Shown in pieces: positions 5,422-10,333 of a DNA stretch of 12,499 nt. The translations under genes were made by a program, and so were the position numbers. This DNA comes from Neptuniibacter sp. (GTDB lineage: Bacteria; Pseudomonadota; Gammaproteobacteria; Pseudomonadales; Balneatricaceae). The first letter of the stretch is position 1. Every line of letters starts with the position of its first letter. Under the pieces are notes generated by a model that was not told the DNA's origin, did no database searches, and saw only the letters and a program-made list of their open reading frames with translations. The stretch lies in NCBI GenBank assembly GCA_030149405.1, contig JASBRM010000199.1, forward strand, positions 1 through 12,499, read 5' to 3'.

Positions 5422-6048
5422 TTAGGTTTTACGCCAAACACTGGCAAGCCAGGGCTGTTGATGACGGGGTAAACCTTCAGGACGGTAGTAATGTTCCAAC
5501 TCAGTGAACCCTGCATCTGTCAGATACGCTTGCCAGCTTTCCAGATCATGATAGGTACCATAGCGACTGCCATTCCAACCCTCCTGATTATCGCCACGAG
5601 GGTTGGAAGCGAATAAAACGCCATTGGCTTTCAGGGTGGAATGTAATGAATCAAGAACTGAAGGAAGTTTGGCTGAAGGCACATGAAATAAAGAGGCATT
5701 AGCGAAGATCCCATCAAATAGCCCTTCAGGAAGATCCAGCTCCAGAAAATCCTGCTCCCAGACATCACAATTACTGTGTTTTCGTGCCAGAGCAGCCAGT
5801 GCATGAGAACCTTCCAAGCCAGTGGCGTTATGCCCTAGTTTGGAAAACGTGATTAGATCCCGCCCGGGGCCGCAACCGAAATCCATAATGGAAAAGGGTG
5901 CTTCGCCATCCATATGTCTGAGCAATGCAGCGATGTTCTGGCTGACGTCGTGATCACGGGTACCCTCCCAGAATGAGTCGGCATTATGGTTATAGTGACT
6001 CAGTGTTGTTTCTGAGATCAGCTTCAGAGTGTCTTTATTATTTGCCAT
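5422..6048 (-). CDS. Class I SAM-dependent methyltransferase, substrate unknown
   Basis: The 208-residue product has a Rossmann-type methyltransferase core. Motif I is IMDFGCGPGRD (about 54-64), Glu79 in GLEGS ends strand 2 and should contact the ribose of SAM, Asp100 in EQDFLELDLP fits motif III, and FDGIFANASLFHV (about 111-123) is motif IV. The C-terminal half has GVLFASNPRG and ends in PWLASVWRK. It resembles small TehB/UbiG-like stand-alone methyltransferases, but nothing in the sequence or its neighbours points to a substrate. No membrane segment is present, so it is cytoplasmic. The start ATG 6048 lacks an obvious ribosome binding site. It is separated from the upstream pqqA gene by that gene's terminator, so it should have its own promoter in 6049-6145. 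Confidence 0.88.
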   Translation of the reverse strand: MANNKDTLKLISETTLSHYNHNADSFWEGTRDHDVSQNIAALLRHMDGEAPFSIMDFGCGPGRDLITFSKLGHNATGLEGSHALAALARKHSNCDVWEQDFLELDLPEGLFDGIFANASLFHVPSAKLPSVLDSLHSTLKANGVLFASNPRGDNQEGWNGSRYGTYHDLESWQAYLTDAGFTELEHYYRPEGLPRHQQPWLASVWRKT

Positions 6049-6084
6049 GTTGAGAGGTGTAACCGCTACGAGAGATAAGTCCGC

Positions 6085-6125
6085 AATATAATCTGTAGGG
6101 AGTGAAAATTACAGTTAGACACTGT
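6085..6125 (-). promoter_or_regulatory. Possible promoter and small inverted repeat for the methyltransferase gene
   Basis: Read on the minus strand, TATATT (6090-6085) could be a -10 box about 37 bases before the ATG. The -35 position (TGTAAT, 6113-6108) is poor and overlaps an ACAGT/ACTGT inverted repeat (6111-6115 and 6121-6125), which could be an activator or repressor site. Weak evidence. Confidence 0.25.
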
Positions 6126-6145
6126 GGGGTTATTAACAGAAATAG

Positions 6146-6173
6146 AAAGAGGAGCCTGTCACAGCTCCTCTTT
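6146..6173 (-). terminator. Terminator just after pqqA (bidirectional shape)
   Basis: AAAGAGGAGC (6146-6155) and GCTCCTCTTT (6164-6173) form a perfect 10-bp stem with an 8-base loop. On the minus strand it starts 4 bases after the pqqA stop codon, and the 3' arm leads into TTTCTATTT. On the plus strand it ends in TTTTT. It should end the rubrerythrin-to-pqqA transcript and insulate the methyltransferase gene. Confidence 0.8.
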
Positions 6174-6177
6174 TTGC

Positions 6178-6249
6178 TTAACGGTTCGCGAAGTACATAG
6201 TGACTTCAAAACCGATACGCAGGTCTGTATAGCTTGGTTTAGTCCACAT
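6178..6249 (-). CDS. pqqA: PqqA, precursor peptide of pyrroloquinoline quinone (23 residues)
   Basis: PqqA is the ribosomal peptide whose Glu and Tyr side chains are crosslinked by the radical SAM enzyme PqqE (with the PqqD chaperone) and then trimmed and oxidised to PQQ. The frame starts [11 protein letters not shown], contains [11 protein letters not shown], and stops with TAA at 6180-6178. The diagnostic ExxxY pair is Glu15 and Tyr19, exactly as in the 23-residue family members. AGGAGA (6263-6258) lies 8 bases before ATG 6249 and 5 before an adjacent ATG at 6252, so a 24-residue form is possible. The gene sits 45 bases after the DUF3501 gene on the same strand and is followed at once by a terminator. 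No pqqB, C, D, E or F is present in the window, so this copy is detached from the usual operon. It is too short for routine ORF calling. Confidence 0.93.
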
Positions 6250-6274
6250 CATATGTTTCTCCTGTCTTGGTTAT

Positions 6275-6294
6275 GGAACTTGTTCACAGGTTCC
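6275..6294 (-). repeat. Intercistronic inverted repeat between DUF3501 gene and pqqA
   Basis: GGAAC (6275-6279) pairs with GTTCC (6290-6294), and two further pairs (TG with CA) extend inward past one imperfect position around a TTCA loop. It begins directly after the DUF3501 stop codon on the minus strand and is not followed by a T run, so it looks like an mRNA processing or stability element rather than a terminator. Confidence 0.45.
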
Positions 6295-6876
6295 TTAATG
6301 CAAATCTCCAACCAGAGATCTGCGAATTTCTCCCTCAATTCTGGTTTCTACTCTATAGGCATCATGCTCTGTGCCCGCTTGAATAGACGCACCCTGTTTA
6401 GCGGCTGAGATCATCTCGGGACTGAGTTCAAAGCGAACAAAATGCACTGAGGAGGTTTTTTCGTCACTACTGCGATCCAGATCTTCGTTGGCAATGGCAT
6501 ATACTTTTTCAAACTCTGCTACCTGAATGAAGAGTTGGTTTTCGATGCCGATCATTTTCGCAAGGGCCGCTTTGCGTTCATTGATGTCAGGGAACTCAAT
6601 CATAAACGTTGCTTTCAAATTCTGACCGTCAGGTATTAACGGGTTGTATACATCCAGCTCCTCCTGAATACCGTCGGCTTCAAAAATCTTTTCTATTCGC
6701 AGCATCTCCTGAACCTGATATTGCATGGTCAGTTCATCTTCAAAATATAGGGCAGCATTGTCACCCAAAGGTAAACGGCGCAATTTTTTGTGCTCCATTA
6801 CCTTAGCTCTGAACTGCTCACGGCATACGGCATAATCTTCAAGGCTGTATAGCTTTTCACGGGTTAACTGACTCAT
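6295..6876 (-). CDS. DUF3501 family protein
   Basis: I choose ATG 6876 (193 residues, MSQLTREKLYSLEDYA) because AGGA at 6888-6885 lies 8 bases before it; an upstream ATG at 6891 overlaps the previous stop and contains that binding site. The protein is soluble with no cysteine cluster. Features are an N-terminal LEDYAVCREQFR, KKLRRLPLGDNAALYFED, a YQVQEMLRIEKIFE helix, an IPDGQNLKATFMIEFPD segment, and a C-terminal SVHFVRFELSPEMI followed by GTEHDAY. These match DUF3501, which has no assigned reaction but is often found next to a GlpC-like iron-sulfur protein and rubrerythrin, as here. The upstream gene's stop overlaps the alternative start, so translation is probably coupled and the two products may act together. 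The family call is from memory of the motif pattern. Confidence 0.82.
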   Translation of the reverse strand: MSQLTREKLYSLEDYAVCREQFRAKVMEHKKLRRLPLGDNAALYFEDELTMQYQVQEMLRIEKIFEADGIQEELDVYNPLIPDGQNLKATFMIEFPDINERKAALAKMIGIENQLFIQVAEFEKVYAIANEDLDRSSDEKTSSVHFVRFELSPEMISAAKQGASIQAGTEHDAYRVETRIEGEIRRSLVGDLH

Positions 6877-6887
6877 TGTTAATTTCC

Positions 6888-8219
6888 TCATATGCCATAG
6901 GCTTTACGTAATAAAGACATTGGGTGTTCGGTATTAGTTCCGTCCCCCAAGGCGTGTTCAATGTGGTGACCGGCCATTGGACAATCACTGCCATGATGGT
7001 CGGCTTCAGCCCGCTTAACGGCACTGACCACTGGGCGGACAATCTTCATAGCTGAATCGAACGTCTCTTTCTTGATGGCATAGGTACCATCATGACCTGA
7101 GCAGCGTTCGATGACGGATACTTCAGTGTCCGGGATTAAGCTTAGGACTTGCTGTGTCTTACGCCCTACGTTTTGAACACGCTGGTGACAGGCTGTGTGG
7201 TAAGCAACTTTGCCTAGGGCAACGGGGAATTTGGTTTTTAATTTACCCGCTTTATGTCGGTGCATCAGGTATTCAAAGGGATCGAAGATGGCTTTACTGA
7301 CTTTTTGCACCGCTTCGTCTTCAGGGAACAGGAGAGGTAACTCCTGTTTAAACATCAATACGCATGAAGGTATCGGTGCGACAATATCCCAGCCATCCTC
7401 CACTAATTTAAGAAGTACTGGAATGTTAGCGTTTTTTGCTTGCTCAACCGCTTCCAGGTCACCCAGTTCCATTTTCGGCATTCCGCAACACTGCTCTTTT
7501 TGCGCCATGGTTACGGGTATGTCGTTATGTTCAAACACAGCAATCAGATCATCACCGATAATAGGTTCGTTACGGTTACCGTAGCAGGTTCCAAACACTG
7601 CTACTTTACCCTGCGTGGGGCCTGCAGCTTCGCCAATCGCGGTACGGCCAATCTTGTCGCTTTGACGTTTGCGCAGGGTATTGCTTTCAAACCGGGGCAG
7701 CTCTGCGTCTTCATGGATCTCGATAACATTCTCAATTAATTTACGGGTAGGTTTAAAGTTATTCACTCCGTTTACAACACTGGAAACAACCGGGAGGGAA
7801 GCTACTTTACCAACCGAGTCCGTACTGGTGAGAATCTGGTCACGTAATTTGGATTCTCCTTTACTGTGTTTGACTGCTTTTGCACGCAACATCAGATGAG
7901 GGAAATCGATCGCCCATTCATGGGGTGGCGTGTATGGACACTTAGTCATGTAGCAGAGATCACACAGATAGCATTGATCCACGACTTTCCAGTAATCCTG
8001 TTTAGCGACACCGTCGACTTCAAAGGTTTCAGATTCATCGACCAGATCAAACAGAGTAGGGAAGGATTCGCACAAACTGACACAACGACGACAGCCGTGA
8101 CAGTGATCAAAGACTCGTTCCAGCTCATTGAACAGTGAAGATTCGTCGTAGAAATCATCACTTTTCCAATCGATAGGATGGCGTGTGGGTGCTTCCAGAT
8201 TGCCTTCTTTCTTAGCCAT
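6888..8219 (-). CDS. GlpC-like iron-sulfur oxidoreductase (two [4Fe-4S], CCG-type domain)
   Basis: The 443-residue product resembles GlpC and heterodisulfide reductase-type electron carriers. The N-terminal part has two ferredoxin motifs: CHGCRRCVSLC (Cys40, 43, 46, 50) and CYLCDLCYMTKCP (Cys83, 86, 89, 94). A helical linker follows, then a CCG-like domain with Cys212 (GTCYGNRNEP), Cys244-Cys245 (QCCGMPKME) and Cys286 (PSCVLM). The second CCG repeat is altered: Cys344 (HTACHQRVQ) and a single Cys373 in ERCSGHDGTYA where the canonical repeat has CCG, with a further Cys413 in SDCPMAGHH. There is no membrane segment, so it should pass electrons in the cytoplasm, plausibly to the rubrerythrin made from the same transcript. 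AGGAG lies 7 bases before ATG 8219. It is often annotated as anaerobic glycerol-3-phosphate dehydrogenase subunit C, but glpA and glpB are absent here and that role is unlikely. Confidence 0.9.
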   Translation of the reverse strand: MAKKEGNLEAPTRHPIDWKSDDFYDESSLFNELERVFDHCHGCRRCVSLCESFPTLFDLVDESETFEVDGVAKQDYWKVVDQCYLCDLCYMTKCPYTPPHEWAIDFPHLMLRAKAVKHSKGESKLRDQILTSTDSVGKVASLPVVSSVVNGVNNFKPTRKLIENVIEIHEDAELPRFESNTLRKRQSDKIGRTAIGEAAGPTQGKVAVFGTCYGNRNEPIIGDDLIAVFEHNDIPVTMAQKEQCCGMPKMELGDLEAVEQAKNANIPVLLKLVEDGWDIVAPIPSCVLMFKQELPLLFPEDEAVQKVSKAIFDPFEYLMHRHKAGKLKTKFPVALGKVAYHTACHQRVQNVGRKTQQVLSLIPDTEVSVIERCSGHDGTYAIKKETFDSAMKIVRPVVSAVKRAEADHHGSDCPMAGHHIEHALGDGTNTEHPMSLLRKAYGI

Positions 8220-8248
8220 GACTGTTCTCCTAAACCAAAGCTTCAGAA

Positions 8249-8297
8249 CCCTTGCTCCCCAACATTAGGGCGTACAAAATTTGTTCGGGAGCAAGGG
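8249..8297 (-). repeat. Strong intercistronic stem between rubrerythrin and the GlpC-like gene
   Basis: CCCTTGCTCCC (8249-8259) is an exact reverse complement of GGGAGCAAGGG (8287-8297), an 11-bp GC-rich stem with a 27-base loop that contains the near-palindrome ACAAAATTTGT (8274-8284). It fills most of the 91-base gap. On the minus strand the stem is followed by TTCTGAAGC, with no T run, so it is more likely an mRNA 3'-end protector or partial attenuator that raises rubrerythrin over the downstream genes. Confidence 0.6.
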
Positions 8298-8310
8298 GTG
8301 GAGCAAAAGA

Positions 8311-8727
8311 TCAGTCCAGCTCATTCAGAGCTTTCTGATAGCGGTTTGCATGAGAACGCTCAGCCTTGGCCAGTGTCTCGAACCAGTCTGCTATCTCATC
8401 AAAGCCTTCATCACGGGCATCTTTAGCCATACCCGGATACATATCCGTGTATTCGTGAGTCTCACCCGCAACGGCAGATGCCAGATTGTCACTGGTAGCA
8501 CCAAATGGCATACCGGTTGCCGGATCACCTGTTTGTTCCAGATATTCCAGATGGCCATGAGCATGGCCGGTTTCACCTTCAGCGGTAGAGCGGAACAGCG
8601 CGGCTACATCTGGATAACCTTCCACATCGGCTTTGTTGGCAAAGTAGAGATAACGGCGATTGGCTTGCGATTCGCCAGCGAATGCATCCTTAAGATGCTG
8701 TTCTGTTTTACTGCCTTTAAGATCCAT
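8311..8727 (-). CDS. Rubrerythrin family diiron protein without rubredoxin domain
   Basis: Rubrerythrins reduce hydrogen peroxide at a non-haem diiron site in a four-helix bundle. ATG 8727 (138 residues, [20 protein letters not shown]) is chosen because GAGGTG at 8740-8735 lies 7 bases upstream; a GTG at 8742 overlaps that site. All expected ligands are visible: Glu19 ([10 protein letters not shown]), Glu52 and His55 ([10 protein letters not shown]), Glu89 and Glu92 (GETHEY), and Glu123 and His126 ([10 protein letters not shown]). The usual C-terminal rubredoxin domain with two CxxC motifs is missing; the protein stops at NELD. Electrons must therefore come from another protein, and the GlpC-like product encoded next is the obvious candidate. 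The gene is first in a run of four on the minus strand. Confidence 0.93.
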
Positions 8728-8947
8728 GTCTGTACACCTCACTTTTGTTGTTTTATGGCGTCATAAGAACACTTAAAAGCTAGTTGAGGGGCAGCTGGGT
8801 TACTAAATTGAATCTGACTACTCGTTTGATAGGTAGAAACTATATGATCTTGTAGAGGCTTAATTTAGTGGGGGTTACCCTTATAGACAGTGAGTCAAAG
8901 ACAAGGTTAAATGTTGAAAGTTTTTCAGGATGCAGCACTTTTGGTAC

Positions 8948-8969
8948 TTAGTTGATTTCGGGCAACTAA
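8948..8969. promoter_or_regulatory. Inverted repeat TTAGTTG-N8-CAACTAA, possible operator
   Basis: TTAGTTG (8948-8954) and CAACTAA (8963-8969) are exact reverse complements around ATTTCGGG. The copy lies about 40 bases upstream of the TATAAT box of the cyclase gene, a position suited to an activator or repressor dimer. No factor can be named. Confidence 0.35.
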
Positions 8970-9005
8970 AGCACAGGTCCTGCTCCTCATTCTGAAAACC
9001 AGATC

Positions 9006-9011
9006 TATAAT
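9006..9011 (+). promoter_or_regulatory. Consensus -10 box TATAAT for the diguanylate cyclase gene
   Basis: TATAAT matches the sigma-70 -10 consensus exactly and would start transcription near 9018, about 29 bases before the ATG. The region 17 bases upstream (CTCCTC) is a poor -35, so an activator or a stationary-phase sigma factor may be needed. Confidence 0.45.
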
Positions 9012-9046
9012 AAAAAAACTATGTTGCTTGCCGCTCAGAAGTAGTG

Positions 9047-10333
9047 ATGAATTTCCTGGAAATTTTAAACCAGCAGCCATACGGAATTGCAGAACTGAGT
9101 GCTGACGAAGGACGTTATCTCTTTTTTAATAAAAAAGAGCAGCAGATCAGAAATCTATCAGACAGTGAAATGAACACTGTTTCTTTGTTTGATCTATTCC
9201 CGCCAGATGAAGCCGATCAACTCAGAGCAATCTTCACACAATGCCTGGCTGCATCTGAAGGTCAGGAGTTCTCATTCAAGTATCAAGCAGATGATCATGC
9301 TTATCAGATGCTTCTGAGCAGAAGCAGCAACAACACTATTCTCACCACCCTGACTGATATTTCACCTCTTCAGGGTCTAGAAAAGCGCTACCAACAAGAT
9401 CAGGCAACCATCAAGTGTCTGAACGATGCGGTTATTGGTGCCAACATTGGTTGTTGGGACTTCTATCCTCAGGAAGGCAAGATCATAGCCAATAAAACCT
9501 GGGTGACTCAGAAGAAATACCGAGACGAAGATTTCAGGGTGAATGATCAGATTTTCTCTGAGGTGATCGACGGTCTTGAGCGTTGGAGTACCATTGTGCA
9601 TCCGGATGATCTGGAACCGACCTTCGAAATTATTGATCAACACCTAAGGGGTGAAACTGAAGTCTACGATGCCAAGTTCAGAATGAAGTTTGGTGATGGT
9701 GAGTGGCACTGGATTCATGACGTAGGCCGGGTATTTCTGAGGGATGAGCAGGGCAATGCCATTCGAATGAATGGGGTGCACATTGATATCACTGAAGCTC
9801 AGAAACTGGAAGAAAAAGTAGAAAAACTCGCTGTTACAGATTCCCTAACAGGGTTAATGAACCGACGAAACTTCAACTACCTGTTTGATGCGGTATATGA
9901 GCGTGCCAAGCGACAGAGAACTTTTTTCTGTTTGCTGCTGATCGATGTGGATCACTTCAAAGCTTATAACGATACTTATGGTCACGTTAAAGGCGACAAA
10001 GTACTGCAGAAAATCAGTAAGGCATTAAAAAAGAATATTCGGCACGGTGAAGACTACTGTTTCCGTGTCGGCGGGGAAGAGTTTGCAGTGATCTTTACTG
10101 AGGGAGAAAAAGAGGCTGCAGAGGCCCTCTCGAAGCGCATCAAGGATGAGGTGGAAAGCCTGAAAATCCCCCATGAAAACAATACCGCTGCCGATGTGGT
10201 TACGGTATCTATGGGGTTATGCTGCACTAATGATATGTTCGATAGCGATCAACTTACAACAATTTATAAACACTCCGATAAATTGCTCTACAAGGCTAAA
10301 GAGGCAGGGCGTAACGCTTTGTTTGTAGAATAA
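9047..10333 (+). CDS. PAS-domain diguanylate cyclase (GGEEF)
   Basis: The protein makes cyclic di-GMP from two GTP. I use ATG 9047 (428 residues) rather than GTG 9044, with AGAAG at 9037-9041 as a weak binding site. Residues about 5-110 look like a PAS-type sensor fold. A second PAS covers about 125-255 and ends with a PAC motif (GEWHWIHDVGRVF, MNGVHIDITEAQ). A short coiled coil (LEEKVEKL) leads into the GGDEF domain, which starts at TDSLTGLMNRR; LLLIDVDHFKAYNDTYGH carries the metal and GTP contacts. The active-site loop is GGEEF at 342-346, so the enzyme should be active. The inhibitory RxxD site is degenerate: His333-Gly-Glu-Asp336 stands where Arg is expected, with Arg332 one place early. 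No membrane segment is seen, so it senses a cytoplasmic signal. Confidence 0.95.
   Translation: MNFLEILNQQPYGIAELSADEGRYLFFNKKEQQIRNLSDSEMNTVSLFDLFPPDEADQLRAIFTQCLAASEGQEFSFKYQADDHAYQMLLSRSSNNTILTTLTDISPLQGLEKRYQQDQATIKCLNDAVIGANIGCWDFYPQEGKIIANKTWVTQKKYRDEDFRVNDQIFSEVIDGLERWSTIVHPDDLEPTFEIIDQHLRGETEVYDAKFRMKFGDGEWHWIHDVGRVFLRDEQGNAIRMNGVHIDITEAQKLEEKVEKLAVTDSLTGLMNRRNFNYLFDAVYERAKRQRTFFCLLLIDVDHFKAYNDTYGHVKGDKVLQKISKALKKNIRHGEDYCFRVGGEEFAVIFTEGEKEAAEALSKRIKDEVESLKIPHENNTAADVVTVSMGLCCTNDMFDSDQLTTIYKHSDKLLYKAKEAGRNALFVE

Follow-up and report, generated by a model that had tools for sequence, protein, structure and literature searches.

An orphan pqqA gene behind a rubrerythrin operon in Neptuniibacter sp., probably an extra copy placed there by a transposon-related rearrangement

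The cofactor PQQ derives from the peptide PqqA. In the established pathway, PqqE and PqqD cross-link a Glu and a Tyr of PqqA, a protease trims the peptide and PqqC finishes PQQ (outlined in PMC12997753). Spare copies of the precursor gene have been described in methylotrophs, with 3 to 12 pqqA copies for Methylophilaceae (PMC4109929), three for Beijerinckiaceae RH AL1 (PMC10848612) and, for M. extorquens, the ‘orphan pqqA’ copies pqqA2 and pqqA3, which respond to the lanthanide source (PMC11317620). The latter text also states, citing Ge et al. 2015, that PqqA supply can limit PQQ synthesis in Methylovorus. The other system of relevance here is the aerobic-type rubrerythrin, which is co-localised with DUF3501 and a GlpC-related Fe-S oxidoreductase named RFO; all three genes were found in 185 genomes (PMC5114695). 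In the open literature that we searched, no paper brings pqqA and rubrerythrin together.

We analyzed a stretch of 12,499 nucleotides of Neptuniibacter sp. (contig JASBRM010000199.1 of assembly GCA_030149405.1), referred to as the window, in which a pqqA gene follows such a rubrerythrin cluster. The gene is intact, lies on the minus strand at 6249-6178 (stop codon included, 6180-6178) and encodes a PQQ precursor peptide of 23 amino acids. Its start codon is the ATG at 6249, with an in-frame ATG at 6252 as a further possibility, and a GGAG ends 6 nt upstream of the latter and 9 nt upstream of the former. With PF08042, whose cut-off is 21.1, the peptide reaches 46 bits, and with the TIGR02107 profile (cut-off 20) it reaches 47.7 bits; a direct read gives Glu15 and Tyr19 in the ExxxY spacing and the C-terminal end NR. 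Because the site was matched with E = 1.2e-10 in a search of its own genome and 0/14 control genomes gave a match, the hit does not arise by chance. The profile scores, the E-value and the controls together rule out a chance open reading frame at this position.

The peptide differs from the commonest PqqA of the genus by a single residue, A6S. Relative to nine canonical-site copies of the genus, the window gene carries 1 non-synonymous and 6-10 synonymous codon changes; the numbers are 2 and 8 against the canonical copy of the congener G006, and 2 and 7 against the other pqqA of its own genome on contig C283. As the codon differences are mostly synonymous, the pattern points to selection acting on the peptide.

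Three genes precede pqqA on the minus strand. The rubrerythrin gene runs from 8742, or more likely from the ATG at 8727, to 8311 (PF02915, 104.6 bits); it has no rubredoxin domain, and the only Cys of the frame lies 5' of the likely start. It is followed by a GlpC-like Fe-S oxidoreductase at 8219-6888, the RFO of the rubrerythrin trio, which carries the CCG domain PF02754 and matches the GlpC models below their cut-offs, and by a DUF3501 protein at 6891-6295 (PF12007, 241 bits). A rubrerythrin without a rubredoxin domain thus adjoins RFO and DUF3501, as in the aerobic-type cluster. The fourth gene is pqqA, whose start lies 45 nt past the DUF3501 stop. Directly downstream of it, at 6173-6146 on the minus strand, is a hairpin resembling an intrinsic terminator, with an 11-bp stem, a 6-nt loop and a T-rich tail. 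Its fold energy of -17.4 kcal/mol (z -3.27) was matched by 0/200 shuffles and is better support for a terminator than the consensus scan, which with 3 sites against a shuffle mean of 3.0 was no richer than the shuffles. Outside the unit, behind the terminator, a SAM methyltransferase is encoded at 6048-5422 on the minus strand (PF13649, 52.6 bits). Most of this had been proposed by an earlier, sequence-only reading of the DNA, and the PqqA signature, the ribosome binding site, the immediate terminator, the position of pqqA as the last gene of the strand behind rubrerythrin, the GlpC-like protein and DUF3501, and the unrelated methyltransferase beyond the terminator are all borne out by coordinates, profile scores and fold energy. 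That none of pqqB to pqqE lies next to pqqA held for pqqB and pqqE, neither of which was placed within the window by the own-genome searches.

In the gap between DUF3501 and pqqA, the consensus scan returned no terminator-like or promoter-like site on the minus strand, which makes read-through from DUF3501 plausible. The lack of a promoter is weak evidence, since the promoter scan gave 1 site against 4.5 from shuffles and no minus-strand site in the whole of 6000-9100, including the region before rubrerythrin. Expression of pqqA would probably come from transcripts that run on from the rubrerythrin operon.

The assembly to which the window belongs comprises 2.9 Mb in 397 contigs and is 96% complete. 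The sequence-only reading had left the rest of the pathway to a search of the full genome, and this search did return further pqq genes. A second pqqA, the only other copy in the assembly, lies on C283 and is followed by a methyl-accepting chemotaxis (MCP) gene (L042 920-2725), by pqqB and by a pqqC piece of 81 amino acids that is cut by the contig end (114 bits, cut-off 240). We found pqqB over the cut-off once and pqqE twice, on C360 (L043) and C334 (L044), and an alignment of 1141 bp shows 93% DNA identity between the two pqqE. Behind one of them lie apparent transporter genes, behind the other a prolyl oligopeptidase gene. The assembly seems to be broken by duplicated pqq operons, and as pqqB was found once, part of one operon is apparently unassembled. 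Two PQQ-alcohol dehydrogenase (PQQ-ADH) genes scored over the cut-off; below it were a match on C396 in two stretches and a weak one on C172. The C396 frame (L237 3626-5254), in which each of the two separate stretches falls short of the cut-off, is possibly divergent.

The window pqqA thus stands apart from pqqB and pqqE, and the copy on C283 accompanies pqqB and pqqC. Given this second pqqA with its pqqB and cut pqqC, two pqqE and two PQQ-ADH genes, we most likely have here an additional, ‘orphan’ pqqA. Among the options named earlier, a split locus, an extra copy or a substrate of another maturation enzyme, the extra copy is best supported and the other enzyme is not needed for a peptide one residue away from the commonest form of the genus. 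The contig on which the canonical pqqA should follow stops inside the preceding SDR gene, and because the 5' end of the canonical operon is missing from the assembly, the window gene may be either an additional copy or the canonical copy that has moved.

Additional pqqA copies are frequent among relatives. PqqA matches were obtained in 70 of the 116 family genomes searched, 15 of which hold at least two copies. Within the genus pqqA is present in 11/11 genomes and in two to five copies in 7 of them, a count that partly reflects second operons, not orphans. The canonical site of the genus has the order SDR, pqqA, pqqB. At a second site, found in G001, G003, G004 and G005, a chemotaxis gene related to the MCP gene of C283 precedes pqqA. 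Further copies adjoin a gene cluster that includes a sigma-54 activator and, in G001, G003, G004 and G006, also a PQQ-ADH. A stand-alone pqqA follows rpoD at a distance of about 410 nt in G001 (L050, C113, ~8058) and G008 (L061, C333, ~7459), and these two orphans share Ser6 with the window peptide. The families of the neighboring genes were assigned on representative loci, the ADH cluster on L046 and rpoD on L050. The rpoD-linked orphan site is thus common to two congener species, and we read the gene ahead of rpoD as dnaG.

The 25-nt leader of the window pqqA, with its GGAG, occupies 6250..6274 on the minus strand and resembles the leaders that canonical pqq operons have in the genus. We aligned it with 25 other leaders, 12 from canonical sites and 13 from elsewhere. 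For five canonical leaders (L047, L051, L057, L071 and L073), of which three have the same sequence, the alignment score was reached by no more than 2 of 500 shuffles, where the shuffles keep base composition only and the letters of the ribosome binding site inflate all leader matches. The score was reached by 19-88 of 500 shuffles for the remaining seven canonical leaders and by 15-411 for the 13 others, the best of which were the rpoD-linked ones with 15 and 16. The five strong matches argue for a canonical-site origin, an argument that is weakened by the rpoD-linked leaders and the shared Ser6. A canonical-site origin of the window pqqA is favoured by the alignments but not proven.

The link between pqqA and rubrerythrin, presented earlier as the unusual part of the locus, is not kept in relatives. 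DUF3501 occurs in 2/11 genus genomes and 23/116 family genomes. At the 23 family loci (L186-L203, L035, L036, L037, L040 and L041), scanned with a strict PqqA pattern over flanks of up to 1.5 kb that were shorter at contig ends, the motif was present once, in the window itself, and it was absent from the order-level DUF3501 loci L038 and L039. We further inspected DUF3501 loci from named genomes, taking the best 80 of 357 relatives (L079-L158), each of which spans at least about 300 nt past the DUF3501 match. Two protein patterns, strict and lax, were used here instead of an HMM; the strict pattern matched nothing, the lax one picked up six frames, spread over five loci, and no frame among them read as PqqA, so that the canonical motif was seen in 0/80. 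The congener G006 carries two pqqA that lie far from its DUF3501, and no PqqA motif was present within 18 kb around its trio (L062). The CcoG-like gene that neighbors the locus recurs, next to the same regulator, in 10/10 congeners, and the 8-16 kb around it in these ten genomes held no methyltransferase, DUF3501, GlpC-like gene, rubrerythrin or PqqA motif. Taken together, these negatives make the placement of pqqA specific to its own lineage as far as sampled. A conserved pqqA-rubrerythrin linkage is rejected for the family loci and the 80 others sampled, and pqqA is not a regular member of the aerobic-type rubrerythrin cluster. A foreign or contaminant contig is unlikely too: the CcoG-like gene and its adjoining regulator match those of G006 at 63% and 60% identity.

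The DUF3501 stop is immediately followed, at 6275..6294, by a near-palindrome of 20 bp that resembles the terminal inverted repeats of IS5-family elements in the same genome and reads GGAACCTGTGAACAAGTTCC on the minus strand. The C-terminus of DUF3501 has the form usual in relatives (of 66 sequences, the window included, 53 were compared; the other 13 fell below the word-match threshold), which places the beginning of the join exactly past the stop codon. The 20-mer recurs at five other places in the genome, one with 1 mismatch and four with 2, and the reversed control at 0; as the pattern was derived from the window, only these five places count. On C391 it stands at the start of a complete-looking IS5-family element of 1.16 kb (L234 389-1547), whose transposase scores 358.6 bits at a cut-off of 140. 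A related 16-mer in the opposite orientation closes the element, so that 16-bp relatives of the near-palindrome lie at both ends, and CTAG and CTAA flank it. The sites on C62, C152 and C258 belong to a common longer repeat of about 100 bp by eye, and the motif stands alone in the window and on C123. In congener G008, near the CcoG-like gene, a MITE-like element of 265 bp (L183 2532-2796) has related 20-mers at both ends, with TTAA and TTAG as flanks. L230, L231, L232 and L233 each show a single copy of the 20-bp end. A stop codon immediately precedes the motif in L230 and L232, as it does in the window.

A complete IS5-family element comprises a transposase and two inverted ends, of which the window has one end only; no partner end was found in it at up to 3 mismatches. 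The same negative disposes of a mobile pqqA cassette held between two transposon ends. At the same tolerance, no such 20-mer lies beside any other pqqA in the loci scanned, and in L049 one is located about 7.9 kb from pqqA. With a single terminal repeat and no partner end, the transposon route is one that we infer, and the putative transposon-like scar, resting on this one end, is the one new detail of the locus.

We consider it probable, at roughly two chances in three, that the window holds an extra, functional-looking pqqA for ordinary PQQ synthesis that was placed behind the rubrerythrin operon by a transposon-related rearrangement and is perhaps transcribed with that operon. A rearrangement at an IS5-type terminal repeat would have put pqqA behind the rubrerythrin-RFO-DUF3501 operon; the gene would have lost its own upstream region, with the 20-bp near-palindrome now at the join, and would be expressed by read-through. 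Glu15 and Tyr19 of the peptide would be cross-linked by the PqqE of the genome with PqqD, and the cross-linked peptide may then be matured to PQQ for quinoprotein alcohol dehydrogenases. The peptide itself gives no hint of a different fate.

Selection might have fused pqqA to the rubrerythrin operon so that precursor supply tracks oxygen or peroxide stress, and the shared strand, the 45-nt gap free of promoter-like and terminator-like minus-strand sites, the terminator after pqqA and the few amino-acid changes of the peptide speak for such a regulatory fusion. However, a join seen at 1/23 family loci and 0/80 others is not conserved, and G006 keeps DUF3501 and its two pqqA far apart, so that we regard selection for the fusion as improbable. 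An account in which a transposon-end rearrangement traded the pqqA promoter for that of the rubrerythrin operon, with the precursor supply of this lineage now wired to oxygen or peroxide defence, we likewise hold to be improbable. The placement is accidental-looking. The near-palindrome might instead have no tie to transposons and act as an operator or attenuator through which pqqA is regulated separately; it is a dyad between two genes, and most of its other sites also lie between genes or at gene edges. This is very unlikely given that related ends bound both the IS5-family element and the MITE-like element and that the RNA fold of the near-palindrome is weak (z -1.10).

The remaining alternatives concern the gene itself. 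Resemblance of the leader to several canonical ones, the contig that ends within the SDR gene on its way to the canonical pqqA and an assembly with two pqqA only would all suit a split locus, in which the pqqA of the canonical operon has moved and the operon depends on the window copy. That gap nevertheless coincides with a break in the assembly, at which pqq genes present in duplicate could have collapsed, and another pqqA is present on C283; we think a moved copy unlikely. It is hardly credible that the peptide serves some other maturation enzyme, or acts as a signal, instead of being a PQQ precursor: its gene does stand apart from pqqB and pqqE, but the commonest canonical precursor of the genus is one residue away and PqqE is encoded twice.

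If the predicted read-through is true, the extra pqqA would be a small natural case in which a cofactor precursor gene has captured a promoter and the join can still be seen. Otherwise the locus is a warning that a gene adjoining rubrerythrin need not share the function of rubrerythrin.

In comparison with known systems, the 20-mer is like the ends of IS5-family elements and derived MITEs in that it resembles the ends of the own-genome element and of the 265-bp element of G008, and unlike them in that the window has just one such end, with neither a transposase nor a partner end. The window shares with the published rubrerythrin cluster all three genes and the lack of a rubredoxin domain in rubrerythrin, whereas the fourth gene, pqqA, is an addition; ‘pqq’ is absent from the main text of that report (PMC5114695). 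As described for the orphan and multiple pqqA of methylotrophs, an additional pqqA occurs in a genome that has other genes of the pathway, here pqqB, the cut pqqC and pqqE. Unlike in those accounts, the genome also carries two pqqE genes, and the additional pqqA follows a rubrerythrin operon. Extra pqqA genes are already known, and the window pqqA adds another genus to those that carry them.
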